Positions 2,300 to 21,000 of a stretch of 52,539 nt of DNA are shown here, in pieces. Where the stretch lies: positions 1 through 52,539 of the IMG/VR virus record IMGVR_UViG_3300020179_000046; one strand, written 5' to 3'. The notes under the pieces are model-generated. The model saw only the letters and a list, made by a program, of their open reading frames with translations. It searched no databases and was not told the DNA's origin. Positions within the stretch are counted from its first letter, which is position 1; each line of letters opens with the position of its first letter. The stretch is from a virus. Both the position numbers and the translations under genes were made by a program.

Positions 2300-5200
2300 A
2301 TGGCAAAGAAAAAAAAGATAAAAACAGATAACATGAAACCGCGTGCTGCGGTTAATATGGAAAAAACAATTTCAACTGTTAATCCAAACCCCCCTAATCC
2401 TAATAATAATCCACCAATTACAATTTCTGGCATTATTAAAAATGTTTATAATGAAGTTGGTGTTCCAGCCTATAGTACTTTATATGGAACAGATTCAAAT
2501 GGCATCCCCTTGAGGGCGATTACTAACGCACAAGAAGATCCTTTAATGATGCGTTATGAATATCCAACTGTATATGGCAGCAATGATTTTGATGTATCAG
2601 CTGGTGATGAAGTATATGGTGATAACATTTTAAATAGAGATTATTATTTTCAACAAGATACCAAATCAATTAACAACGGCAAAATAGTTATTCGTAGATT
2701 TGAAAAAAAAGGTAAACCATATATTACATATGATGAAGAATATTTCAATCATATTTTTAATTGGCCAACATCACATACATTACGATCTCGCAAACTTGGC
2801 GGATTTATTAAAGAAATAATTACTACTACTATAACAACCCCAGGAGCCCCTGGCGCCACTCCAACTGCACCAGTCCCACCGACAATCAGTTCATCTAGTG
2901 TTACAAACATATATCCAGTTGCGGCAACACTTAATGGACAGTTTAACTTACAAAAAGTTCAAAGTAGTCTGTATTATATTAATGATGATTGGACATATAC
3001 TGAAATTCCATTAAATGCAGATGGTACAGTTAATAGCGAAACGGTTACAGACAGAATTGGTAAACCAGTTTTGTATCATGGAGGAACAGATAATAATAGT
3101 ATCTTTTTTAATTACGTTGTAGACACTACAAATATAAATGAAGTTGCAACAAGTAATCTAGTAGCCATTGGTGATACAGTAAATGGTGCAACTATAACTA
3201 ATATTGTCAATTATTTGGTTGATACTGCACTTAAAAGAACTGCCTCTAGATATCCAAAAAAAGGTGAAGTAAATATAGATATTACACAGACCCAATTTTT
3301 AGCATTAGATTCTAGTTATACAGTAGCAGATTTTAATAATACAAAAGCTTGGTTAAAATTAAATGAAGTAGATGGTATTACTAAGGGTAATACCATCTCT
3401 GGAAAAGGAATTCAGTCTAACACCTATGTTACTGGTGTAGATGAATCAAGAAATAAAATTTATATTTCAAAAACTTTATCTGATAAAAAAGTAAAATTAA
3501 TTAGAGTATTTGATGATGCAATCAATAAAGTAAATAAAAGCACTTTATGTTATGCAGAAATTTCTGGAACATCTGTAAACTTTAGTGCAGATACTGATTA
3601 TAGTGTCACTAGAAATAATGCGTCAACTGGTATTACTATACGTGTAAGGGCAGGAAAAGGCGTTAAGAATAGATCTGCAATCACTGGTGTATATTTTAGT
3701 AAAAATAAAAAAGAACTTGAGTATGTACCAATTTTTTATTCGGCTGATTCAAATTGTCAAAAAAATACATTAACAGATAATAACGGCACATATACACTCG
3801 GTACAGTAATTTGGAATGATAACACCAGACTTGAGAATAAGTATTTGATGACCAATCCAAGTGCTGGAATTGCATATTCAATTTCATCATTTTATCTCTC
3901 ATTTACAAATGCACCGATTGATAAAGAAACTCTTGAACGAATGATAGATTCATATAATCAAAATACTAGTGTATTGGACTTATATAATAAAATTAACGAG
4001 TATGTAAAAACAGTAATTGGTAGTAGACGTGCTGCAGGTGTTTTTGATGATATCTGTAGGGATGAAATTTTTGTAGAGTACTTTCAAGCATATAATCCAC
4101 TTATTGAAGTTAACACCTTTACGAGCAATATTGGTCAAATAAACTCTGCTGTCGGAGATGACTGTGTAACAAAGTTACCTGCATTTGAATCATATTCAAT
4201 TGATGAATCGAAACAAAAAATTGAATCTATAATTAATAATTCTGTACAAAACTCTATTATTTTGCCAGATGAGTATTATAAAAAATTAGTATCTAATAAA
4301 GATTCTTTAATGAATAGACTTACTGATGCATCAAAATTAGTACAAGATTCTACTCCAAAACAAACAAAAATCAATAACCTTCCACCTAGTATTGAGGGAG
4401 AAGATAGTTCTGGAGTTCGATGGTTGACTGAAAACTTTAGAGATCTCCCTCCTGCAATGGATAGAGTCAAATTTTTTGTTAATGATATTTCTCTCGCATC
4501 AGATAAAGATTTAGATCCTACTCTGAATTTAGATCCGGCAACAACAGTCAATCAACCAAAAATTATTATACGTTCCAGACCATGTTGGACTTGGGGTGGA
4601 GAAAACTCAATTCCAGTTGGTATTAATGGATATACGCCGTTTATTGCTACTATTGGATTAAATGTTGATGTAGATAGTAATAACCATGTAAATAGTATTA
4701 CTACCTTTCCTGGTAGTATTAATAAACAAAATGAAACGATTATTTCAGGCAATCAAACGATCACAATATCTAGATCTTGGATTGAGCCAACACCAAAAAC
4801 AGCTAATGACAATATTATTTTTGGGGAAAAGAAAAAAACTTATCAACAAGGTGGATATATCAAGGCGACAAATTGGACTCTTCCTCCAGAACTAAGAGAT
4901 TTAGATCATAAAGAACGTACTGAAGATAGTGATATAGAAAATCCAACTGTATCAATTTATCCAAAGCAAGTTTGGATGCCAAATATAAATTATCAAATAG
5001 ATTATCATAAAATGTTTTCATTTAGAACAGAAGAACTTTCTGAACTTTTAGGTGAAACTATTACTAGTTTTGGCAATCCATACTTAGATAATCCAGTTAG
5101 AGCAAAATTAACTAAGACTCTAGAACCAGGAGATACTACAATTCATGTAAAATCTACAGCGGGTTTTGTTTCTTCTGGATATTTAATTATTCCAAAATAC

Positions 5201-5647
5201 ATAAAAAAATTATATACAAATGAAACTGGAAATATTAATAAAAATTTTACTTATTGCGGAGAAGAAATAATTTATTACAAATCAAAAACAGATACCAGTT
5301 TTAATACTTGTGAACGTCAATTATTTGGCACTACCGATAACTTTAATATTACAGTTCCATCGTATTCTTTAGAAGCCAATGTAATGTATAAAATTGTCAC
5401 TTTAGGGGACACTAATTGGCAATCTGTTGGAGCCGGAAAAAGCCCATCAGTTGGAACTATTTTTACAGCATCTGGTTCTATTACTGGAACTGGATTAGCT
5501 GAGGTACTGGGTTCTACTACGGAAGAAGTTCCAGAGGTAAAGTTGGTTTCTGGTGTTAAATCTCCAAGTAAAATTCCTATAATGACAAGTTATGAATATG
5601 GTTTTAGTATATCTCAACATTGGGTATTTACTTTAAAGGGGAACTAA
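2300..5647 (+). CDS. Large virion structural protein upstream of PAAR
   Basis: 1115 residues, not identified by family. It starts with a Lys-rich end, an Asn/Pro-rich linker (about 28-40) and a second Pro-rich linker (about 179-198). Three modules recur in phage structural proteins: a V-D-G-I-x-x-G-N-x-I-S-G segment (about 350-395), a T-I-H-V...E-E-I-I-Y-Y-K-S...C-E-R segment (about 943-1020), and a Y-K-I-V-T-L-G-D-T-N-W-Q-S-V-G-A type segment (about 1028-1075). Its stop abuts the start of the PAAR gene. By position it could correspond to the spike/hub protein gp5 that carries the PAAR tip in T4, but I see no lysozyme or clear OB-fold signature. A baseplate or tail-associated role is inferred from context. 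Confidence 0.8.
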   Translation: MAKKKKIKTDNMKPRAAVNMEKTISTVNPNPPNPNNNPPITISGIIKNVYNEVGVPAYSTLYGTDSNGIPLRAITNAQEDPLMMRYEYPTVYGSNDFDVSAGDEVYGDNILNRDYYFQQDTKSINNGKIVIRRFEKKGKPYITYDEEYFNHIFNWPTSHTLRSRKLGGFIKEIITTTITTPGAPGATPTAPVPPTISSSSVTNIYPVAATLNGQFNLQKVQSSLYYINDDWTYTEIPLNADGTVNSETVTDRIGKPVLYHGGTDNNSIFFNYVVDTTNINEVATSNLVAIGDTVNGATITNIVNYLVDTALKRTASRYPKKGEVNIDITQTQFLALDSSYTVADFNNTKAWLKLNEVDGITKGNTISGKGIQSNTYVTGVDESRNKIYISKTLSDKKVKLIRVFDDAINKVNKSTLCYAEISGTSVNFSADTDYSVTRNNASTGITIRVRAGKGVKNRSAITGVYFSKNKKELEYVPIFYSADSNCQKNTLTDNNGTYTLGTVIWNDNTRLENKYLMTNPSAGIAYSISSFYLSFTNAPIDKETLERMIDSYNQNTSVLDLYNKINEYVKTVIGSRRAAGVFDDICRDEIFVEYFQAYNPLIEVNTFTSNIGQINSAVGDDCVTKLPAFESYSIDESKQKIESIINNSVQNSIILPDEYYKKLVSNKDSLMNRLTDASKLVQDSTPKQTKINNLPPSIEGEDSSGVRWLTENFRDLPPAMDRVKFFVNDISLASDKDLDPTLNLDPATTVNQPKIIIRSRPCWTWGGENSIPVGINGYTPFIATIGLNVDVDSNNHVNSITTFPGSINKQNETIISGNQTITISRSWIEPTPKTANDNIIFGEKKKTYQQGGYIKATNWTLPPELRDLDHKERTEDSDIENPTVSIYPKQVWMPNINYQIDYHKMFSFRTEELSELLGETITSFGNPYLDNPVRAKLTKTLEPGDTTIHVKSTAGFVSSGYLIIPKYIKKLYTNETGNINKNFTYCGEEIIYYKSKTDTSFNTCERQLFGTTDNFNITVPSYSLEANVMYKIVTLGDTNWQSVGAGKSPSVGTIFTASGSITGTGLAEVLGSTTEEVPEVKLVSGVKSPSKIPIMTSYEYGFSISQHWVFTLKGN

Positions 5648-5923
5648 ATGGGAACACCTATACACAGACTAGGAGATATCAATACAGCTGGTGCTCCAAT
5701 CCTTTTTGCAAAAGCAATTACAGTTGTTTCTGCAGGAGCTCCAGTTGCAACCACAGGAGATCCAGTTGCTGGACATGGCCTCCCACCCCATTCATCGCCT
5801 GTAACGGGTCCAGGCAGTCCTATAGTACTCGCTCAAGGAGTTCCTGTAAATAGACAGGGCGATGTAGATACTTGCGGTCATTTACGAGCAACCGGCAATC
5901 CCACAGTTTTGATAGGACCTTGA
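5648..5923 (+). CDS. PAAR-domain spike tip protein (gp5.4-like)
   Basis: A 91-residue PAAR protein. The fold shows as repeated Gly/Pro/Val strands (PIHRLGD, VATTGDPVAGHG, VNRQGDVDTCGH). The likely metal site at the cone apex uses His43, His48, Cys76 and His78. PAAR proteins cap the membrane-piercing spike of contractile tails; T4 gp5.4 is the reference. The ATG follows the previous stop directly with AGGGGA upstream, one of the stronger ribosome sites here. The TGA lies inside the -35 box of the next transcription unit. Assignment is firm; the partner spike protein is presumed to be the upstream gene. Confidence 0.92.
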   Translation: MGTPIHRLGDINTAGAPILFAKAITVVSAGAPVATTGDPVAGHGLPPHSSPVTGPGSPIVLAQGVPVNRQGDVDTCGHLRATGNPTVLIGP

Positions 5924-5948
5924 CATATATGGTTATTTTTGTTATAGT
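5920..5948 (+). promoter_or_regulatory. Near-consensus sigma70 promoter
   Basis: TTGACA (5920-5925), a 17-base spacer, then TATAGT (5943-5948). This is a perfect -35 with a 5/6 -10 at optimal spacing, overlapping the PAAR stop codon. Transcription would start near 5955, about 16 bases before the ATG at 5971. It is the best host-type promoter in the window. Confidence 0.8.
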
Positions 5949-5970
5949 ATAGATTCATTGAGTTAACCAT

Positions 5971-6117
5971 ATGGCAAAAGTAGGAAGTTTTAATAAGACC
6001 AGTTATGTTCCTGGCAGTCCAAAAAAGACTCGTCAAGGTCGTAGTCAACATACTCACTTGGGTGCTTCTTCCCGAAATGGACGTAAAAAACGTTATCGTG
6101 GCCAAGGTAAAGGTTAA
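5971..6117 (+). CDS. Very basic 48-aa protein, own transcription unit
   Basis: A 48-residue product (MAKVGSFNKTSYVPGSPKK...) with 13 Lys/Arg, 2 His and no Asp or Glu. The C-terminal half (GRKKRYRGQGKG) looks like a nucleic-acid or ribosome-binding tail. It is unstructured or nearly so, and no family is recognised. It sits alone between a near-consensus sigma70 promoter and a textbook terminator. It is thus expressed independently of the late tail genes on either side and could be made early by unmodified host RNA polymerase. There is no clear Shine-Dalgarno site. Options are a host RNA polymerase/ribosome modifier or a DNA-condensing protein; which is right cannot be told from sequence. Confidence 0.8.
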   Translation: MAKVGSFNKTSYVPGSPKKTRQGRSQHTHLGASSRNGRKKRYRGQGKG

Positions 6118-6125
6118 ATTGTTCG

Positions 6126-6148
6126 CCCTCCGCAAGGAGGGTTTTTTT
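6126..6148 (+). terminator. Intrinsic terminator after the 48-aa gene
   Basis: A six-base-pair all-but-one GC stem (CCCTCC / GGAGGG) closed by a GCAA tetraloop and followed by seven T. This is a classic Rho-independent terminator, 8 bases after the stop. It would also stop late transcripts arriving from the PAAR gene unless they are antiterminated. Confidence 0.93.
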
Positions 6149-6162
6149 ATGAGGAAAAATGG

Positions 6163-6170
6163 CATAAATA
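6163..6170 (+). promoter_or_regulatory. Late promoter box CATAAATA
   Basis: One mismatch from the T4 late consensus TATAAATA, 15 bases after the terminator T-run and 61 bases before the next gene. It would restart late transcription for the 6232 gene, gp25, gp6 and the giant gene. Confidence 0.6.
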
Positions 6171-6178
6171 ACACTATG

Positions 6179-6218
6179 AGGAGATAGAAACCTCCTAAAA
6201 AGTTCTGGTAAACCAGAA
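6179..6218 (+). promoter_or_regulatory. Two small hairpins in the leader of the 6232 gene
   Basis: AGGAG (6179-6183) can pair with CTCCT (6192-6196), and TTCTGG (6203-6208) pairs perfectly with CCAGAA (6213-6218) around a TAAA loop. Both lie in the presumed 5' leader, 14-50 bases before the ATG at 6232. They could affect mRNA stability or translation. No T-run follows, so they are not terminators. Confidence 0.4.
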
Positions 6219-6231
6219 TTTAGAGCATTTT

Positions 6232-6426
6232 ATGGCTACTTTTCATGTCCCAGATCATGATTATGATTATATGAAGCAAAAATTTGGTACTTGTGTGTTA
6301 ATTAGTGACCCTGCTTCAGAAAAATATTTAAATATGTCCAAAAAAACTCCGGCAACAAACAGAATGGAAAGGTGGTGCGGCGGAAAAAATGGATTTGATG
6401 ATTATGTAGAACGTTTTGACACTTAA
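6232..6426 (+). CDS. Small protein of unknown function (64 aa)
   Basis: A 64-residue product (MATFHVPDHDYDYMKQKFG...) with an aromatic/acidic N-terminus, a basic middle and a W-C-G-G-K-N-G-F-D-D-Y motif near the end. I do not recognise the family. It is the first gene after the late promoter box and directly precedes gp25, so it is likely a late virion or assembly protein. No Shine-Dalgarno site is evident; a hairpin lies 13 bases upstream. Confidence 0.7.
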   Translation: MATFHVPDHDYDYMKQKFGTCVLISDPASEKYLNMSKKTPATNRMERWCGGKNGFDDYVERFDT

Positions 6427-6444: not shown

Positions 6445-6885
6445 ATGATAGGATCAACTTCAATAAAAAAATCATTAACATCTGAATTTCTTGGAAAAAT
6501 TTCAAGATCTTTTAAAGATATTAGCTTTAATTTTACAAGAAATCCTATCACAAATGATGTTGTGATATTAAAAAATGAAGAAGCGATCAAACAGTCTGTA
6601 AAAAACTTAGTATTAACTCAAATAAATGAAAGGCCGTTTAGACCTATTTTAGGTACAAACACCACAACTATGTTATTTGAGTTGGGCCCAGAGATTGCTG
6701 CTAACTCGTTGATTCAAGAAATTGAAGATGTATTAATTGAAAACGAACCTAGAATAGGTTTAGAAAAAATTGATGTTGAAGCAATAGATGATCAATATAA
6801 ATTTGAAGTAACAATTGAGTATTTAATAGTTGGACTTCCTCCAGAAGTTCAAACCCTATCCTTTATTCTCGTTCGAGAAAGTTAA
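6445..6885 (+). CDS. 25: Baseplate wedge protein gp25
   Basis: 146 residues, close to T4 gp25 (132). The gp25/VgrG-associated wedge pattern is clear: N-x-R-P-F-R-P-x-x-G (about 52-61) and the conserved E-N-E-P-R-I glutamate-proline-arginine motif (about 108-113), followed by the typical final beta strands. Gp25 joins gp6 dimers at the inner baseplate and starts sheath polymerisation by handshaking with the first gp18 ring. It lies just upstream of gp6 as in other T4-like phages. The ATG lacks a visible Shine-Dalgarno site. Confidence is high. Confidence 0.93.
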   Translation: MIGSTSIKKSLTSEFLGKISRSFKDISFNFTRNPITNDVVILKNEEAIKQSVKNLVLTQINERPFRPILGTNTTTMLFELGPEIAANSLIQEIEDVLIENEPRIGLEKIDVEAIDDQYKFEVTIEYLIVGLPPEVQTLSFILVRES

Positions 6886-6890
6886 TTTAG

Positions 6891-9008
6891 ATGGAATTAC
6901 CAATAGTTTCTGCCCTAGAATTTGAACAGATAAGAAGTTCAATCAAAAATTATATTAAAACAAAGACAGATTTTAAAGATTATGACTTTGAGGGGTCTAA
7001 CCTGTCTATGTTGATTGATATATTAACATATAATACAATGTATACTTCATACAATGTAAATATGTCTGTAAATGAGTTAAATCTCGATACAGCTGTTCTA
7101 AGAGACAATATTGTTTCCATTGCAAAAAGATTGGGGTATAATCCAAATTCTTATACCTCAGCAAAAATTGAAGTTAACTGTACAGTCGTCAATGATAATA
7201 ATTTTGATTCTATAAAAATAAAACCAGGTGTTTTATTTGTAGCATCTGCAAACGGAAAAAATTATAAATTTGTAGTTAGAGATACTGTAGAACTAGACAG
7301 CAGAGGAAAATCTAGTGTAACTTTTGAAAACTTAGAACTTATAGAAGGCACAGATTTTTCAATTACATATACTGTAGATACATCAAACGAACATCAAAGA
7401 TTTTTTGTTCCTAATAGTTTTGTTGATTCGGATACAATTAGAGCATTTGTTATAGCAGATCCATCAACAAATATTGAGGAAGAATATGAAAGGAAAAATA
7501 CCATAGTTGATGTAACTGCAGAAAGTAAAATTTTCTTTGTGGAAGAAGTTCAAGACCAAAAATATGAAATTATTTTTGGAGATGATACATTTGGCAGAAA
7601 ACTTAAAAATGGGGAGGTAATTAGACTCCAGTACATTGTTTCTGGTGGTTCTCAAGCAAATGGTATAAAAATATTTGATTTTGTTGGTCAAATATATGGA
7701 ACAAGATTCTCTCCAACCCCAATTGAAAATTTAATTATGCTTTCAAATATTTCATATAAAATAAATTCGGAGTTTTCTGACGGAGGTTCTGAATTTGAAA
7801 GCATTAGATCAATAAAATATGCCGCTCCAAGATATTATGCATCACAGGAAAGAGCAGTTACATTGACGGACTATGACACTATCATAAGACAAATATACTC
7901 AAATGCAGACTTAATTAATGTTGTAGGTGGAGAATCTTTATCACCACCAAGATTTGGCCAAGTTTTTATTTACATAAAACCCGTTGTTGGCGAAAATGTA
8001 AGTTTTGGTCAGAAGCAAAAAATTAAAAATGAACTTAAAAAATACAAAGTTGGTTCAATTACTACTCAGATAATTGATAAAGATAATGCAGATGTTCATC
8101 TAACCATTAAAATTCATTATGATTCAACAAAAACTAGAAAAACTATATCTGAGCTTCAATCTTTAATAAGTAATGTTATATTACTCTATGCAAAAGAAAA
8201 AGAGTTTGATAAATTTGGTGGACTATATTCAAATTCAGAATTAATTTGTAAAATTAAAGATATTGATAAATCAATACAGTTTGTAACAATTTTAGTATAT
8301 TTACAAAAAACTGTTGAGGTATTTTCAAATCAAGAACACAAATATTTTGTGGACTTTTTCACTAAATTAAAAACAAAAACTATATCAGAATATTATGTAA
8401 TTTCGGAACCTTTTTGTGCAGTAGGATATTCTACTCCAGTTTATCTTGCAGCAGTTGGAAATTGTGATTACACGGGAGATTTAAATCTATATTCACTAGA
8501 TCGTAGATTAATAACTCCTAAAGTTGGAAAAGTAAATCCACAGACAGGAGAAATTGAATTTACAATGAATATGTGTCAAACTACTCCAATAAATATTGCA
8601 GTTATACCAGATGTGATTGAAATTCGGTTTGGGCCCGCAACAACTCCTACATTAATTCTTGATAATATTGAGTTGACGGATAAAGATTATGAGGAAACAT
8701 TAAATCCAGACAATAATACATTACCAATAGATAGAATACTACTAACACCAGCTCACGGCGATAAAAGAGCTACAAATATTGGAATTGGAACTGATTTAAT
8801 TGTTATTGATAGAAATGGCAATCCATATGTAATTCCAAAACCTATCTCAACTAGCCCTGGTGGAGCTACGCCAATTAGATTACCATCTCCAACATTACCA
8901 CCAATTAATCCTCAAGATCCTGATGACCCAACTGGCGGCACTGATCCCAATGATATTACAGATATTGATAACTTTATTCCAGAAACAGATCCTACGGCTT
9001 GCTCATGA
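6891..9008 (+). CDS. 6: Baseplate wedge protein gp6
   Basis: 705 residues against 660 in T4. The N-terminal region has the conserved D-Y-D-F-E-G-S-N-L-S-M-L-I-D-I-L pattern (about 28-43) seen in gp6 and related baseplate J-type wedge proteins. The middle carries the TDYDTIIRQ segment typical of the family. The last ~60 residues are Pro/Asp-rich and probably a flexible tail absent from T4. Gp6 forms the dimer ring that holds the wedges together around the hub and triggers sheath contraction. The gene follows gp25 by 5 bases, has no clear ribosome site, and its TGA overlaps the next ATG. Confidence 0.9.
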   Translation: MELPIVSALEFEQIRSSIKNYIKTKTDFKDYDFEGSNLSMLIDILTYNTMYTSYNVNMSVNELNLDTAVLRDNIVSIAKRLGYNPNSYTSAKIEVNCTVVNDNNFDSIKIKPGVLFVASANGKNYKFVVRDTVELDSRGKSSVTFENLELIEGTDFSITYTVDTSNEHQRFFVPNSFVDSDTIRAFVIADPSTNIEEEYERKNTIVDVTAESKIFFVEEVQDQKYEIIFGDDTFGRKLKNGEVIRLQYIVSGGSQANGIKIFDFVGQIYGTRFSPTPIENLIMLSNISYKINSEFSDGGSEFESIRSIKYAAPRYYASQERAVTLTDYDTIIRQIYSNADLINVVGGESLSPPRFGQVFIYIKPVVGENVSFGQKQKIKNELKKYKVGSITTQIIDKDNADVHLTIKIHYDSTKTRKTISELQSLISNVILLYAKEKEFDKFGGLYSNSELICKIKDIDKSIQFVTILVYLQKTVEVFSNQEHKYFVDFFTKLKTKTISEYYVISEPFCAVGYSTPVYLAAVGNCDYTGDLNLYSLDRRLITPKVGKVNPQTGEIEFTMNMCQTTPINIAVIPDVIEIRFGPATTPTLILDNIELTDKDYEETLNPDNNTLPIDRILLTPAHGDKRATNIGIGTDLIVIDRNGNPYVIPKPISTSPGGATPIRLPSPTLPPINPQDPDDPTGGTDPNDITDIDNFIPETDPTACS

Positions 9009-12000
9009 GATACTTAGAAGAAAAAAAATCAAATATCTCAATTCTTATTGAGAATCAATTTCCAAGCTTTGTTCAGCAGAACAATCCACAATTTCTTAAA
9101 TTTTTATCATCATATTATGAATCTCTGGAAACTAAGTATCAACCACTTGATATTGCATCAAATTTAATTGATTATTACAATATCTCCTACTACAAACCAA
9201 ATACTTTAATTAAAGAAACAAAATTAACTTCTATTTTATTAGCAAATTCGACTATAATTCCGGCAGAAGATACTACAGGATTTCCTATAGAAAACGGATA
9301 TATTAAAATTGATGATGAAATTATTTTTTACAAATCTATCACTGCAAACTCATTTGTTGATTGTGTAAGAGGAACTTCTGCTTTAATATTAGAAAATATT
9401 CCTAAATCAGAAGTTGTACTAACAAAAAGTAATTCAGAGGAACATGAATTAGGATCTGCAATTAAAAATATTGCATATGATTATTCATCGGAATTTTTTA
9501 AAAGAATTAAATCTGAATTAGCACCATTAATTACAGAAAATGTAGTAGAAGAATTAGATTTTGCACAATTTTTAAAAAATATTAAATCTTTTTATTCGGC
9601 CAAAGGTAGTCTAAATGGTCATAGAATTATATTTAAAATTCTTTTTAATGACAAAAAATATAATATTCTTTTAAAACCACGAGGATCCGGCGCAAAATTA
9701 AAAATTAATAATTATAATAAATATATTCCTAAGAATCCACCGCCTCAAATTGTTAATGGTGGAAGTAACTATGATTTTAGAAAAGATCCTAATACTAATG
9801 AATTTCTTAATTCTCCCATAATTGATATTTTGGGAAGTGGCACGGGAGCTGTAAATAATAATGGACTTAGACCAAATAAAACAGCAATTGTAAAAGTAAC
9901 TGGAATTAATACTAATGGAACAATTACATCAGTTGAAGTAGTTGACCAAGGAGAAGAATATATTGGTCCAATAAGATCCAAAGTTCGTCCAAGATCTTTT
10001 TATCAAGATCAAAAAGTATATAATAATACTGGTACTGGATATGGAAAAGTAGAATTTTGGGATGGTTTTAAAAATGAACTTATTTTGTATGATGTAGTAG
10101 GATTTTTTAAATCTGATGATGAAATTATAGGAATTGATGGAGAATCTCCAAGAGCGTTTATATCTAGAGCTTTTATTGGCACCACTTCTATTAGAAGTGG
10201 TGTGGAAACAATTCCAGAAGTACAAAATATTGAGTTTCCTAGAGAATATACATTTAGAACTTCAGACTCACAACACATTGAGAAGAAAATTCTCAAATGC
10301 AAATTAATGCGTGGTAAAGATATTATAACCAAAGGCAAACTACCTCAGACATTGACTTTAAGACAAGATAAGGATATTTTGTTTGGAGTTGAGGGCACTG
10401 ATTTAGAAGTTGATAATATCATTTCACTCAGAGATAATACATATGAATTTGAAGTTTCAGCAAATACAAATTTATCAAAACTATATTTACCACCATCTAC
10501 AGAAATTACCATAAACTCTTCTTATTCTGGATCTAATTTTATTGTTACTGTAGATGATGCAAGTAGATTTCCAGTTACAAATGGTATCTTATATGTAAAT
10601 GGAGTATTAATTGAATATGCTCATAGATCAATAGATCAATTTTTTGATTGCAATTATTATTTTGGTACTAACTTATCTGTGGGAATTGGAGATGAGGTAA
10701 TATCTTGGGGTAGAAAAAAATATACTATAAAGTGGAATATTAATGAAACTATTAATCAGGGTGAATTTAGATATTATAAAGATAATCTGTATAAAGCAAC
10801 TTCTTCTGGTATTACTAGTTCTATTAATGGACCTACGCACACATCTGGTGTAAAAAGAGATGGTAGGTATGCCGATGGAAATCCAAATCCAGTAAAATGG
10901 CAATATATTGGTAAAAATACTCTTAAACACACTTTATATGATATAGTAACCGATACAGAATTTGAATTTATTGCTGTTCCTGGAAATATTGTAATTGTTG
11001 ATGGCGGATCGTTACATACACAACAACAATATGAATTTGCTAATGTAGATTCTCCCAATCAACAGATGTATAATTTTACATCTAAAGAAATTTCTGACAG
11101 ACTTGGTGTTGTTCTATCAGGAAATTATAATAGAGGATATAACACAGTTACAGATTCAAGATTGCCGTCATTTGGTTCATTGTCAGGATTTAATTCTTCT
11201 CACGATTTTGAAGACTACATTTATGTTGCAACTAGTGCTATTCCTAGATGGTGGAATGAAATTGTTGATCTAACTCAAGTAACTTTAAATTCTGAAGATC
11301 TAAAAAAAGTATCTTTTACAAATCAAAAATTAATTACTAGATATCGAAAAAGCACCTTAGTTAATGAAACTAGAGTTGGTACTGATTTATATCCAACTAA
11401 AAAATCTATCGCTGTCAATGCGGATGCAATTCAAGTAAATTCCTATAAAGGAAATACCATAAACTATGGCAAAATTAATAACTTCACTATTGCAAAGAAC
11501 GGTGATTATAAAGTAGTTTTTAGAAAACTCCCCAACTCTTCATTTGTATTTGATTTTTCTAAATTTCCATCATTTACAATAAAGTCTAAAGGTCTTTCTG
11601 ATTCTAGTGTAAACGGACTTGTGAGAATATCTTCTAACTTACATAGTATTAATTTCAATGCATTGGCCGAAAAATGGAAAAATACTGGATATTTAACTGG
11701 GTTTACAACAAAACCAGTGATTGAAATAATTAATAACAACCCAACAAAATCTGCAGTTATATCTAAAACTAATTTAAATTTTAATACAAATACATTTACA
11801 ATAACATATTCTAGTTCATCAAATCTTGAATTCAAAACAGCGGACAAAGTTACATACTTTACTCCACTTAGCACCACAAATCCAATAATTCAATTAACAA
11901 ATATAATACCAACATTAGTTGATCAATCTGAGTATTATCTATTTGTTGTATCGACATCTTCGGGAGTATACCCAAAAACAGTCACATATTCTATACACAA

Positions 12001-15000
12001 AACAAAAAGTGAAGCAATTCTTGGATCTAATAAAATTCAATTAAGTGTACAAAATCCTTTACCTGATTTTAATTTTTCTTTACTTGGAGAGAGTTTAAAT
12101 CCAATTGATTTTAAATCTGCAGAATTAGATTTAAGTTATAATGAAGATACGAAACAACTTGATAATATTATTATTAGAGATTCTGGTAGTGGTTATGTAG
12201 AAGCACCAACTATTAGAATTGTTGGCGGCGGCAAATCTAGTCTTCCTCAAGATGCAATTATTATTCCATATGAAATTGATGGTGTTGAAATTATTGAAAT
12301 GAGGGGTCCTCTAGTATCATATACAAATTATGATAAAAATAATTCTTATGAAATTGATTCTTTGATCAGTGACAATAACTCTTATGAAATTACTCCAGAG
12401 ATTGTTGTTGATGCAGGATCTGATGCTGAAGCGGTTGCTTATGTTTCAAACGGCAAAATTAATTCAGTAATTCCAACTAATGGTGGCAAAAATTATTTTA
12501 CTGTGCCAACCGTGCGATTAACAGGGTCTGGTGGATCTGGTACGGATGCAGTTGTACATGCAAAAATTAATAATGGCAATATTACGGATTTTGTTATTGT
12601 CAATCCCGGCAGAGATTATATAATTCCAATCACTGTAGAGATTATCCCTGCAGGATCTGGAGCAGTTGTTACTGCAAGATTAAATGAATGGACATTTAAC
12701 TTAGTTCAAAGATTAGAAACTATTGGTAGAATTGATAGTTTTGGTGGATATGTGTACAATAAATCTGATTATAAAATAACTTCTTCATCCGATCTATATA
12801 ATCCATCTAAATTTGTTCATATAATTCCCGACAATGACTTAGCACCTGGAATTACTAATGCACAATACTTATTACTAAAATCTTCTAAAAAATTATTAGC
12901 AAAATATACTTTAGAACAAAGAAGTGGTTTATTATCAAAAATTTACCCAAATGTTAATTTTACCTATCAAACCTCTCAAGGAATAACTGATTTACTGAAT
13001 ACTACAGTACATTCTCCAGTAATAGCTGTTGCATATGATGGTGTTCCTGTCTATGGCAACAGAGGATATTCTATTAGATATGATGCCAGCAGTACAGTAA
13101 CTGAGATTCCATCCAGATATAAATTAAAGTATAGCACAATTAATTCTACTGGCAGCATTTCAATAGTTGTGAATGGGACAACTTACTATGTAAACAGACC
13201 AGGTGGACCACTTATTTCACAATATCCAATCGGTAGTTTTATTGAAGACTATGTATTTGAAGCAGGTGACTCTCATAGCTTAGACAAATACAATGGAAGA
13301 TTCTGCGTAACACCAGAATTTCCTGATGGAAGATATTGTTATTTTACGACGACCAGTTCTTTTGATGCGGTGACAAATGGTATTATTCAACAATCAAATG
13401 TAAACTTTAATGGATTTCCATATTTTGTAGGAAATGGTTTTGCATCCATTCCAGACACTTATACAAATAACTTTTGCAGAACAAACGATAAAATTCCAAA
13501 AGCATTTACTAGATCAGTAGATGTAGCAATTCCAAGATCTGACCAACTATATTTTCCTGGACTGCCATCAAACAAAAGATATCCAAAAGAAGATGTAAGT
13601 AATGATAAAACAATTTCTGGATCTTCTTCTTTAACTCCAGGTTCCGTTGATAGTGTAATCATCGAATATCCAGGTAAAAATTACAAAGTTGGTGATAAGT
13701 TAGTTGTAGATAATACTCTTTCCTTTGGTTCTGGGTTTGGAGGATTTGTTTCTAAAATTCATGGTAAAGAAATTTCTACCTTTATTATTGATAATGGAAA
13801 AATAACAGTATTTACCAGTCAACCTTCTGAATTGTCTATTAATGATTTTGTATATTTTGATTATACAACTCCATCAAATCCAGTAGTTATTAATTTTCAC
13901 GATTCTAATTTCTTACCAATTAGTAGCAAACTTATTGAGTCTCAATCAATTTCTGCTCAACTTAGTAGCACAAATTATTCAAACAAAAGATTTTATTCAT
14001 TGTCGTTGAATAAAAAATTTAAGTATAAGTTCAATATACCAAATTTACCATATTCATTTACTTATGATATTGATAAATTAAATGAGTACTTTGTAATTGA
14101 AGAAAATAACAATTCTGATCCTGCAGCTATAATTTTTGATGCATCTAAGTTGCCAACTACTTTGTATTTGCATATTGGAAATTATATTTACGAAATTACT
14201 ACATCAATTCAATTTTCATCACAATATAGAGTTAGTTCAATCAATGTTGCAAGTAAATCATTTACATGTAATATTTTTGAGGATGTATCTACGTTTGAAA
14301 CTAGTAATATTAAATATATAACTAATTCTATTAATCCAAACGGATCTATTGCTGAAATTTCTGTATCAAATGGCGGTTATAATTACAGAAATTTGCCTAG
14401 TGTTACAGTTGATTCTAAAACTGGTTCTGGTGCAATTGTTCAATTAGATTCAACTACAATAGGTAAAATTAGAAACATTAAGTATTTAACTGCAGGCGGA
14501 GGGTTCACATCCAACTTAAATGTTAATTATTACCTAAATTTACCATCAACTGCAAAAATTATTAATAATTTTGAAATTTATGAAGTTGAAGTTATTGCTG
14601 GAGGAAATTATTACAAGGACAAACTTGAATTATTAGTTGATGGAAAATCTAATCTTGCTAAATTTAAAATAAATGTTCAAATAGGTGTAATTACTAGTAT
14701 TGAAATTCTTGATGGCGGTTCTAATTTTGAAACTGTTCCAGAATTACAACTCGTTAGTACTACTGGAGTTGGTGCAATTCTCAAAGCAAAAATTAGGAGA
14801 AAGAAACTTTTTTCTGGCGAATTTCTTACTGCAAAAGAAAATTCAATATTGTTCCCAGTTAAAGAAATTAGAGCTAAAACTTTGTCATTCAATGAATTAA
14901 ATTCTACATTTGAATTTGAACAAAATATTGGTGAGTTTAAAAATGGAGATCTTCTGTACACATCTGATGGTAAAAAATATGGTAGGATTACTAAAATTCG

Positions 15001-18000
15001 TAGGTCCGTAGCATATGCTAAAGTTAATCCCTATATTAACTTAGAATCATCAAAACTTGATATCACTGGGAATACAAGTGAATCTTTACAAAAAATTACA
15101 GATAATATAGTTTATCAAAATTGGTCTTATATCCTTTCTTCTTCTAGAGACACTAAAGACTGGAGAGATCAGATTACGGTAAATACACATCCAGCCGGAC
15201 ATAAGTTATTTGGTAAAAAAATAATTGATAGAAGAAAATCTTTCTTTGATAATCCAGATGATGTATTTAAAACTAATGTAATTTTTACTGCTAATTTAAT
15301 AAATAAAATTCTGTTAAAAGTAAAATTAACCCCGTGTAAAGATCAAGTTATTTCCATTATAAATCCAGGAAATTTTTCTATTGGTGATTACGTATTTGGA
15401 TCTATATCAGAATCTATTGGTAGAATTGAAGAAATAACAGAATATTCATTAAAATTATCTCTACTTTCAGATACTAGATTTAAAATTGGTGAATTTATTA
15501 TAAAAGTTCCAGCCTCATTCTCATTTGGCATAGAATCTGCAACTTCAAAATCGTTTGTATTCTGGAATGGCATTATGCAGCAACCAGAATATAGTTATGA
15601 ATCCGCATTTAAATATGTAAATAATCTTGGACAACCTTTGACTGTGCCTGTTGTTGATGTATTGATTCCAAAATTTGATTTATTACCAAGTGATGAATTA
15701 CTACATTACAAAGTATCGTCTGCTCTTACAGTATATGATTCGTATACATTAGATCCTAATGATGATATATATTTCCCTTCACTTAAGAAAAAATCTGTTT
15801 CTGTATCGGGTAATTTTTTAAACCAAACTATCATATCTGTTGGAGGTGCAGTTCAGAACCCATCAGATTTTCAAGTAAATGTTAATGAAAAATATATAAA
15901 ATTAAATGATAAACCAAATTCTACCGCAACAGTATTTGCGATTGGCGGCGAAAATTTACACAGACTAATTTTTACTGGTCCTACTTCAGGAACCAAATTT
16001 CAACTTAATCATATTCCAACATCTAATTGTCAATTATTAATATTCTATTCTGGTATTGAACAATCACATCTGCTAACAGATTATTCTGTATCTGGTAATG
16101 AAGTTGTTTTTTCAACAGCTGTTGAGAAAACAAATATTTTTGGTTGGATAAATATTGAACCTGTTGAATGTTTGCAAATAAATGTAAATGATTTATTAAA
16201 AAATAAAATTACTGGTACTTGGAATTGTGATACCAAAAACTTTACTGAGTCTATACATTCTAGTGCAGTAAAAACTCCATCATCTTTATATGAGATTAGG
16301 AAAGAATATTTAGATGGTACTATTTTTCCAGATCCAGACAACACCACGTTGTATGGGTTTGACACCAAATTTACATATACTACACCAGAGTACTCAAGAA
16401 GTTTTGTTGAAGTACTTGATACAATTCAATTTACTGGAGTTGACAAGTCATTCAAACTCACAAGAATCGATGGCAATTCATACACACCAGTTAGAGGTGA
16501 AGGTTCATTAATGGTTTATGTTGATAATGTAGTAGTAGATCCAGATGAGTACTCTGTTACTGGTGACACTATTCTTTTCAACTTAGCATATGCATCAAGT
16601 TCTAAGTGTACAATTATTGATTTTAATAGTACTTATCGTGCTGATTCTATTGGACTTGGCGGCGCTAATCTTGATAGATTAAATGTACAACACAACGGTA
16701 TTAGAAAAAGATTTAATCTCTCCGATAGAGGTGTTCCCCAATATACGAAGAATGTTGGAGATGTATTTGCAATTAGAAATGGTATTCTTCAAAGACCAGA
16801 TCAAAGACATCAAACTATTTCTACCAATAAAATTACATTCAACGATGCTCCAGAATTTATTGATACTACTGACCTAGTTTATTTTAACAGACAGTTATTA
16901 CCATTACCAACTAAGAACGTAGTTCTTGATGATTTCTATTGTTTTGATGGAGTTAGAAAAGACTTCCCTTTAACTTTGGATGGTATTAATTTCTATCCTA
17001 TTAATGTATACAATCTATTTGTTGTTAGAAATGGTGTTTATCAAAAACCTGGAATTGATTTTAGATTAGGCACTCCACTTGATATTAGAGAAGTGCCTGG
17101 TTTAGATAGTTATGAATTAGATGGATCTCATTTGGTGTTTGATTCGGCCCCAGAAAAAACAGATGAAATTATTGTCTTCTATTCATATGATGGATTAAAT
17201 CAAAATCTTAAGTTAGATCCATTCAGATATTTTAATGGTGTACAAAAAACTTTCTCTCTAACTAAAAATTATATTTCAACAACTCCAACATCATCAGATC
17301 ATATTCAGGTCTACAGGAACGGTGTCTATCAGTATTCTGGGTTGGATTATATTGTGGAAACTACGAATGGTGGTCCTAGAATTACGTTTACTACTGCTCC
17401 ACTAGAAACTGATGATATTTTTGTTACTGAGTATAATACATCTACTCGTTTTGTAAATAAAACAATAGATTTTGTTCAAATAAATTCCAATACCATCAAA
17501 AATCAATCAAATGAGTCACTAACAACTTCCGATGTAATTTTAATTTATAAGTCTGGCATTTTAATTACAGATGGTTGGTTGATTGATTATACAAATCAAG
17601 TCATCAATTTTGATGAATCATTTACAATTGACAATAAAACAAGAATATTTGTAGTTAAAAACTGTGAAGGTCAACTTGACAAATTCTTCAAATTTGATGG
17701 TGTTGAGACTACTTTTCCAATCACAAAGAATGTAGTTTCAAAAACTCCACATTCGGAAAATCATATTCAGGTTTACAGGAATGGTGTTTATCAGTATTCT
17801 GGCGTAGATTACAGTGTTTTTTCCACAAATGGTGGTCCTAGAATTACGTTTACTAGTGCTCCTTTGGCATCTGATAACATCTTTATCACTAATTTCCACA
17901 GCACGTCTCACTTTACTGATGCTACATCTGGATTTACACAAATTTCATCAACGAAATTCCAGTATACATCTTCAATTGGTGCGGTCTTCTTATTAATTTT

Positions 18001-21000
18001 TAAAGATGGTATAATTCAACTTGAGGACTCATATACAGTAAGTAACAATACTATTACATTTAGTGAACCAGTAGTATCTCCCAACATTAGAATTTATTTT
18101 ATTGGTAATCAAGTCAAAAAACTTGACAACTTCTATATCATGAATGGAGTTAATAAAGTATTCCCGCTATCTTATTTCTCTGAGTCAATCACTACAGATA
18201 ATATTTTAGTTTACAGAAACGGTGTTTATCAATATCCCATATTAGACTATAACGTATCCTTCAATACGTATGGCAACAAATTAATTAGCTTTATTACTGC
18301 TCCTAATGAGACTGAAAATATTTTTATTGTAGAGGCAACAAATACAACCAACTTTGAAGACATTACAAATAATTTTGTTCAGGATAACTCAACAACCTTA
18401 GGTAATATTACAACTCTAAATCAATCTAAAATTTTACTAGTTTATAATCAAGGAATTTTACAAAATTCAAATTCATATTCATATAATTACATCACAAACA
18501 AGTTACAATTTACTGAAACATTTGCATTAAATTCGTCAGTCAGAATTTATGCAGTTAAAAAAATTGTATCTTCCCCAACAACTGTTCCAACTGGAATTCT
18601 TGATAATGTATATAAAGTTGATGGAACAACAACAACTTTTCCACTAACAATAAATAATTCCTCATTCACAGTATCAGCTGAACAAGGAATCGGTTGGCCA
18701 AAAGCTCAAGTTATTAGAAACGGTGTATTCCAAACTCAAGGGTATTATACAACCAACACCAACGGTGGTCCAAGAATTATTTTTGATGATGCCCCCATCC
18801 AATCTGAAGATATTTTTGTAACTGCATTTGCAGCAAATCAATTTGTTGAATTGATATCCAATCCTACCACTGGATTAACTGAGACTAGTTCAACCGTAAT
18901 TACATACAACGGAACCAGAAATCTTTCTGCCGGTGTAGTTTTAATTTTTAGAGAAGGTATTCTTCAAAAACGTGGTACATACACTCAAATTGGAAATGTA
19001 TTTACTTTCAGTGAATCGATAACTCTTGCAAATACTAAATTCTATCACTTAGAAAATACTACTGTAATCGATTCTCCATATTTTAAAAATGGTGTAACTA
19101 ATACTTTCCCATTAACTAAAAATAACCAATCTATATCTTCTTCAACTGTAAATGAAACTTTAGTCTACAGAAATGGTGTCTATCAGTACTATGGTGTTGA
19201 TTATGTAATTACAGCTGCAAATGGCGGGCCTAGAATTACATTCACCACATCACCCCAGTCAACCGAACCAGTATTTATTCATAATTTTACTAATCAAACT
19301 GGATTTAAGAATTTAACACCACAATTTACGGTAATCACTCCAACAACATATCAGTACAGTGGAATTATTACTAGCGAACCACTATTGGTATTCGTTGGTG
19401 GTATTATGCAAGTTCGTGATTCTTGGTCATTTAATTTAAGCACCAAGACAATTACATTTACAGAAATTCCAAATGGAACTGTAAATATTTTCCAGATCCA
19501 AAATTGTCCAATTCTTGTAAATCAAATTGTAACATCTGCAAAACAAACTAGATATCAATTGAAAAATGGAAGAAAAAATCACTTCCCGGCATCTGCAGAA
19601 TCATTATTTGTATGTGTTGATGGAATTGTTCAACAACCAAATGTTTCTTACGCCGTTGTTGGTTCCGAGTTAGTATTCATTAATGATATATTAACTACAG
19701 GAGTTCCACTAATAGTGATTGATGCGTCTGCTGCTGGGTTGAGATGTTTAGACGATATTGAAACAGCATGGGAGATTGGAGATAAAAAGTATCTCAGAAC
19801 ACTCCAAAACTACCAGAGTGTCAATGATTCACAAATATTGTTAACAATTAATGGAATTGTTCAAGATCCTAACTTCTATTCCGTTAACAATTATGTAATG
19901 ACTATTTTTGATCAACCAGAGAATCCATGGAGCGTCATTGAAATTTTCAATGCAACTCAATCTGGATTTGTAAGACTTGATAATCTCGGTTCAATGAGAT
20001 CTATCACGAATAAGTATAAAGAAATGGTGATGTTTGATAACTATTGGACTATTTCTTCATCTGCAACTTCATTGGTAGTGAATGCTGATGGAGTAGTTCA
20101 AAATCCAAAAATAAGTTATGAGACAAATGGAACTCTGATTAGATTTAATTCACCAACAATAAATCTAGACAATGTTGAAGTTATTAACGTGACGAGTGGT
20201 TCTCTAAGAATCCTTGATAAGTTGTCTGATCTTTCTAATGAATATGTTGATTCTCAAGGTCTAATTCACACGGAGTTTGTGATTAGAAATAGCTACACTG
20301 AACTTACCACATCAACTGGGGCCCTAGTTGTTTATGGATCTATTGTACAAAAACCAGGAGTTGATTATGTAATTCACAACAATCCACTTAAGACATTTAA
20401 AATTATTACCGAATATGGTGTAGATCTAAGTCAATTAAAGATTTATGACGTATCTAAGACTTCATACGAATTGATTGATAATCTAGATTCATTAATTTAT
20501 TCATCTGGTGATAATTACACTCTTAGAATTACAAATAAGTATCAAACAATTTCTGGATTGTATGCTGAAAATACTTTAGTTCAAATAAACGGTATCGTAC
20601 AGAATGTTTCATCGTACAATATTATTAATTCTACAATAACATTAATTGGTTTAAACTATAAAACGGCCAAAGTTTATAATTTATCTGGTGCAAATTTGAG
20701 ACTGATTGATAATCTATCAGAAGATTTTTCAACCCCAACATTTAAATTGACTCAAAATTATAGTACATTTACTCCAAGCAATCTGGTAGATATCTTTTTA
20801 CTCAGAGATTCTGTATTGCAAAATCCAACTGAAGATTATATTGCAGGATCTGGATATATTACATTTACATCAAATATTCAAAAATCTACAGATATATTCA
20901 TTTTATATACACACAACTCACAAGAGATCATTCCAATATTGGCCATTCCATATACAATCTGTACTACGGAAGATACCTATACTCTTCCATATGCAATTCC

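Follow-up and report, generated by a model that had tools for sequence, protein, structure and literature searches.

The window analysed here, i.e. the whole 52,539-nucleotide stretch of the virus record IMGVR_UViG_3300020179_000046, represents part of the genome of a T4-like cyanophage, in which baseplate, neck, terminase, sheath, portal and scaffold genes were recognized by Pfam and PHROG profile matches. The junction of interest, all parts of which lie on the plus strand, begins with a PAAR-motif gene (5648–5923; Pfam PF05488 above cut-off, phrog_281), which encodes the tip of the baseplate spike and is followed by a gene for a basic protein of 48 amino acids (5971–6117), a small gene of the PHROG 1414 / T4-GC 825 family encoding 64 amino acids (6232–6426), and the genes for the baseplate wedge proteins gp25 (6445–6885; PF04965, phrog_261) and gp6 (6891–9008; PF21379, phrog_219). 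An earlier, sequence-only reading of this DNA had placed the basic gene between PAAR and gp25, which holds for the slot and not for direct adjacency to gp25, as the PHROG 1414 gene intervenes. The same junction carries a predicted promoter of host type, a predicted intrinsic terminator, a T4-type late promoter box and a predicted H-type pseudoknot.

Upstream of the PAAR gene, positions 2300–5647 hold an open reading frame of 1115 amino acids, which is without a Pfam match, is not confidently matched by any PHROG profile, occupies the slot of the baseplate wedge subunit annotated before PAAR in other cyanophages, and contains an FTASG..GTG segment near residue 1055. Downstream of gp6, one open reading frame of 4958 amino acids spans 8999–23875, where S-RIM8 likewise has a giant virion structural protein. 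A megablast search of window positions 1–25000 against phage records returned no match, so the comparisons were made with proteins and short motifs. Relatives were gathered via protein similarity and later motif scans, the “group II” copies, which have a distinct sequence and distinct neighbours, were excluded, and the remainder was thinned to 107 representatives for the promoter count. The group II copies (L026–L080) encode another version of the basic protein (RTLLSATSRN) and lack an extended −10 promoter; their pseudoknot gene is found several hundred bases beyond the basic gene, with other genes between the two.

The 48-residue basic protein

The 48 codons at 5971–6117 contain 13 Lys/Arg and no Asp or Glu, just as the sequence-only reading had it. 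The lack of acidic residues is not a feature of the family as a whole, since Glu is found in many homologues. The product matches PHROG 516 over nearly its full length (E 9.5e-19; residues 6–47 to profile positions 7–48 of 48), and the family is annotated as T4-GC 394 in S-SSM5 and S-PM2. Its invariant part reads K-x-T-x-QG...T...A-x-S...K-x-x-RGQG. No match was found in Pfam, NCBIfam or the PDB; a resemblance to ribosomal proteins was considered and dropped for want of any Pfam or PDB match. AlphaFold predicts a disordered chain (pLDDT 65, pTM 0.19), and this model, as well as that of the PHROG 1414 protein (pLDDT 62), was too uncertain for a structure search. From its composition, the protein would likely act as a disordered cationic peptide that binds nucleic acids.

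The search for this protein in related phages at the same position, as proposed along with the earlier reading, found PHROG 516 in the PAAR–gp25 slot of S-RIM8, S-SSM5, S-IOM18, S-RIM4, S-H35, Syn9 and others. The homologue query returned 441 cyanophage records, compared with about 460 cyanophage records (among 981 in total) when the gp25 of the window was used as the query. As the gene is thus about as frequent as gp25 and keeps the same slot, it is regarded as a near-core gene of the cyanomyoviruses rather than a moron, which one would expect to be absent from otherwise syntenic relatives, and the moron-type cassette of the sequence-only reading is not supported.

Promoter and terminator of the basic gene

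The predicted sigma70-type promoter upstream of the basic gene spans 5920–5948 and consists of a −35 hexamer TTGACA (5920–5925), within which the PAAR stop codon (5921–5923) is located, and, after a 17-nt spacing, a −10 hexamer TATAGT (5943–5948), preceded by the TG of an extended −10 element (5940–5941), which together give 11 of 12 consensus matches and a predicted transcript start at ~5955. Its score alone is not significant, as 3 sites with at least 11 of 12 matches occur on the plus strand of the window vs 1.4 expected, so that its significance comes from comparative evidence. Among relatives with a gap of 25–70 nt upstream of the basic gene, TGnTATAnT is found within 80 nt of the ATG in 25/39, compared with 2/150 control genes of similar gap, and shuffling predicts 1.4 occurrences among all 107 representatives. 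The element occurs in 1/27 relatives with a gap of at most 10 nt and in 0/29 with a gap above 70 nt, and in all matches but one its end lies 21–27 nt from the ATG. In L205/L206 and L207, which are the distinct relatives closest to the window, the −35 hexamer TTGACA, its 17-nt distance from the −10 and a −10 of the form TATnnT (TATACT in L205, TATTAT in L207) are retained, even though their spacers are identical to that of the window at only 7/17 and 10/17 positions, respectively. At the same place upstream of the basic gene, a promoter is also carried by S-PM2 and S-RIM32 (both TGCTATAAT) and by S-CREM1 (TGGTATACT).

The promoter that the sequence-only reading had proposed is on this comparative basis regarded as real and lineage-dependent, and the data support the view that in a large share of the relatives the basic gene is served by a host-type promoter; early timing of the gene would follow from the promoter type only. 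In Syn9, S-SSM5, S-RIM4 and others, the basic gene abuts PAAR at 2–4 nt and has no promoter, and it must therefore be read together with PAAR. Another subgroup (L010, L012, L035 and others) has TTGACA-17-TACAAT within the end of the PAAR coding region, possibly a different promoter solution for the same gene.

The predicted terminator downstream of the basic gene (6125–6148) was found as previously described, with a GC-rich 7-bp stem (6125–6142), a GCAA loop and a T7 run (6142–6148); within the first 14 kb, no other terminator-like site scores as high, and it is kept in L204–L207. Across 131 representatives, 35 have a terminator within 60 nt after the basic gene, and none is expected by shuffling. 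Of the 25 representatives in the 25–70 nt class that bear the promoter, just 4 also have the terminator. The notion of a self-contained, insulated unit thus applies mainly to the lineage of the window. In family, size and neighbours (PAAR before, gp25 after), the gene of the window is like other T4-GC 394 / PHROG 516 genes, and it differs from most of them in having both a promoter and a terminator of its own instead of one or neither.

The late box and the pseudoknot leader

A T4-type late promoter box, CATAAATA, occupies 6163–6170 and begins 14 nt past the T run, with a predicted start at ~6176–6178, in agreement with the earlier proposal that late transcription would be restarted shortly after the terminator. 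It is a TATAAATA-like box at a gene boundary, as expected of gp55-dependent late promoters, and similar boxes lie at the ends of many genes. Within the structural cluster of the window, ATAAATA late boxes start on the last base of a stop codon at 23875, 35848, 47369, 49024 and 49935, and in L013, L016 and L019 the stop codon of the basic gene is itself overlapped by a late box, one hexamer ending one unit and starting the next.

Directly downstream, 6179–6206 can be folded into an H-type pseudoknot, which would lie in the 5′ UTR of the late transcript. In the window, stem 1 pairs 6179–6183 with 6192–6196, stem 2 pairs 6186–6187 and 6189–6191 with the GUUCU at 6202–6206, leaving 6188 bulged, and an A-rich linker spans 6197–6201, the sequence being AGGAG-AUAGAAAC-CUCCU-AAAAA-GUUCU. 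In general form, the element measures 28–29 nt and comprises a GGG/CCC stem, the loop AUAGNAAC, the A-rich linker and GUUCU, which is complementary to AG-N-AAC of the loop. Stem 1 covaries, with GC, AU, CG and UA at its variable pairs and pairing kept. Across 83 distinct cores, 25 of which were obtained by scanning for stem 2 variants, 96.4% of the cells are paired, with 70 double-change cells vs 18.5 in shuffled data and a covariation score of 0.266 vs 0.083 when shuffled and 0.02–0.11 when slid. Stem 2 is less secure, as three of its pairs are invariant and the outer A-U pair is also A.C in 38 distinct elements (G.U in 39), so that support for this nearly invariant stem is thin; one pair is found as G-C, G-U or A-U. 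A covariation of the outer pair (GG/CC), which at first appeared strong, was withdrawn since G.U forms are common. In S-CRM01, which carries a variant form of the knot, AG to GA and CU to UC have changed together in stem 2, and in S-P4 and ACG-2014a only the bulged base has been lost from it. The bases of the loop and linker are conserved beyond what pairing needs.

The motif occurs in hundreds of cyanophages, nearly always 21–30 nt before the PHROG 1414 gene, which is essentially the sole family 3′ of it, ahead of gp25. It was present in 78/83 of the sequences first examined. Among upstream regions picked solely for the protein encoded downstream, 34/48 have it, and several of those that lack it are truncated or mis-started. 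The matches of motif-only IMG/VR scans were almost all located 21–30 nt upstream of a PHROG 1414-like gene. Cultured phages with the knot include Syn9, S-SZBM1, S-IOM18, S-RIM4, S-H35, S-P4, ACG-2014a, DSL-LC03 and S-CREM1; S-PM2 and S-RIM32 lack it despite having the PHROG 1414 gene. Most of the matches that fell into bins of bacteria or archaea are on cyanophage contigs binned with other organisms, and two look like chance. Four contigs (L420, L423, L425 and L426, binned as Lokiarchaeota, Flavobacteriales, Woesearchaeota and Sphingobacteriales, respectively) bear the cyanophage pseudoknot with its gene and are therefore probably mis-binned phage DNA.

Of 244 leaders, 114 have a TAAATA box no more than 60 nt upstream, and the box is 7–10 nt 5′ of GATAG in 95 of those 114. 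With the geometry of T4 late promoters, transcripts from a box so spaced would have their 5′ end at stem 1. The knot is also found without a late box, abutting upstream genes.

In the window, stem 2 is mutually exclusive with a competing 9-bp hairpin, AAGUUCUGG-UAAA-CCAGAAUUU (6200–6221), which shows compensatory changes in L205 and L207. When the minimum-energy fold without the knot was computed for 285 leaders, the 3′ half of the knot (GUUCU or stem 1) remained free in only 9 vs 98 expected, and 187 of the 285 fell into the class with a paired Shine-Dalgarno sequence. For 14 leaders, compared with 0.8 expected, a downstream arm that pairs with the 3′ strand of stem 1 is itself followed by a U-run adjacent to the AUG, an arrangement that may represent a terminator or else capture of the Shine-Dalgarno sequence. 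Nearest-neighbour estimates give −0.3 to −3 kcal/mol for stem 2 alone vs −7 to −18 for the competing hairpins. As the latter are more stable on paper, the hairpin would be expected by default and the knot once something stabilizes it; the knot may thus need help to form. In the class to which the window belongs, the competing hairpin leaves the Shine-Dalgarno sequence mostly free, which makes the reading as a switch weakest there and the direction of control uncertain. On grounds of pairing, the leader combines a conserved core with a mutually exclusive expression structure, as would be expected of a riboswitch.

No covariance model of Rfam 15 matched the window or ten relatives at the gathering level, weak unrelated matches alone were obtained at a permissive threshold, and the exact motif strings occur in none of the papers searchable without subscription. 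The knotted leader, being absent from Rfam and from these papers, appears to be previously undescribed and looks like a translation switch. The preQ1-I riboswitch is also a small H-type pseudoknot with an A-rich third loop that controls a Shine-Dalgarno sequence; the cyanophage knot differs from it in its loop sequences, in having no Rfam match, and in that its locus gives no hint of queuosine genes. The operator of T4 gene 32, likewise an H-type pseudoknot in the 5′ leader of a phage mRNA upstream of the start codon, was described in 2010 as perhaps the sole viral pseudoknot in translational autoregulation (PMC3014915). That pseudoknot, however, lies 67 nt upstream, before unstructured A+U-rich RNA, whereas the cyanophage knot is 21–30 nt from the AUG, shares bases with a competing hairpin and precedes a different gene. 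In T4 gene 25, a simple hairpin sits between the Shine-Dalgarno sequence and the AUG, forming a split ribosome-binding site that was reported to be absent in distant T4-like phages (PMC3014915); RNA structure near gene 25 is common to both cases, but the cyanophage structure is a pseudoknot before the upstream small gene. The structured leaders already known from cyanophages, i.e. wcaG, manA, PhotoRC-II and glnA (PMC2864571, PMC9964418), are in Rfam, and none matches the motif. The Rfam scan by the authors of S-CREM1 listed only abiF, wcaG, manA and glnA, though this phage carries the knot.

Proposed model and alternatives

The model to which a probability of roughly 0.6 is assigned is that of a junction with two promoters, within the baseplate cluster of a T4-like cyanophage, at which the second unit begins with the knotted leader. 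In the first unit, host RNA polymerase would use the sigma70-type extended −10 promoter to make a short mRNA for the 48-residue protein, stopping at the hairpin and T7; late read-through from PAAR could also yield the protein, and the peptide would be made before or alongside the structural proteins. A gp55-type late promoter would then restart transcription, producing an RNA that begins almost exactly at the pseudoknot, which would form the conserved leader of a PHROG 1414–gp25–gp6 unit. The 3′ part of the knot (GUUCU or the 3′ strand of stem 1) may instead pair downstream, which in most relatives would hide the Shine-Dalgarno sequence, so that translation of the small protein would be promoted when the knot forms and opposed by the hairpin. 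The stabilizer of the knot would act in trans; a phage protein is the most likely candidate, and the PHROG 1414 product could itself be that protein. The knotted leader is considered the stronger finding, the promoter with its gene being real and moderately interesting.

As regards the basic gene, the sequence-only reading saw in it a moron-type cassette with a possible host-takeover protein. An inserted, self-transcribed gene whose early product would bind a host target does fit the host-type promoter, the terminator and the small basic product; the presence of the gene in the same slot of nearly all cyanomyoviruses and the many copies without promoter or terminator render this reading very improbable, and as an insertion the moron appears largely refuted. 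An incidental or weak sigma70-like sequence next to a structural gene that is made solely late, together with the tail genes, would be in keeping with the tail-cluster slot, with the many relatives in which the gene abuts PAAR, and with the near-chance score in the window, but it is a doubtful explanation of the strong, position-fixed enrichment of the extended −10 element wherever the gap allows and of the hexamers conserved across diverged spacers.

As regards the leader, the knot could be a static element that stabilizes the 5′ end of the late mRNA or sets ribosome access, with neither ligand nor switching, as would agree with the late box spacing, which places the transcript start at stem 1, and with the RNA structures that assist gene 25 translation in T4 (PMC3014915). 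Such a role appears unlikely, though less so than the alternatives for the basic gene, as loop and linker are conserved beyond the need of pairing, the alternative hairpin is maintained across classes, and the knot also occurs in leaders that lack a late box. The H-type fold, the A-rich third loop, the invariant core and the exclusive hairpins, which pair the Shine-Dalgarno sequence or precede a U-run, would also suit a riboswitch that binds a metabolite, yet the knot precedes a single gene family that heads a structural operon rather than metabolic genes, so that autogenous control by a protein fits better and a metabolite ligand is improbable. Being tied to one gene family, the knot is more readily explained by control through a phage protein, perhaps the product of that gene. 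A broader proposal, put forward tentatively and held to be less probable than its negation, is that the 28–29 nt core GGG-AU-AGNAAC-CCC-A-rich-GUUCU defines a new class of ligand- or protein-sensing RNA, which at the start of the late mRNA would control the small gene and gp25–gp6 in many cyanomyoviruses by opposing the knot to Shine-Dalgarno-occluding or terminator-like hairpins.

T4-like cyanophages are abundant ocean viruses, whose gene control has mostly been inferred from T4. The promoter indicates that host polymerase, even when unmodified, can have access to a gene within a late tail cluster, a caution against deducing the timing of expression from map position. An RNA switch before the baseplate genes would, if true, represent a new layer of control in virion assembly, which could be tested in model phages such as Syn9.
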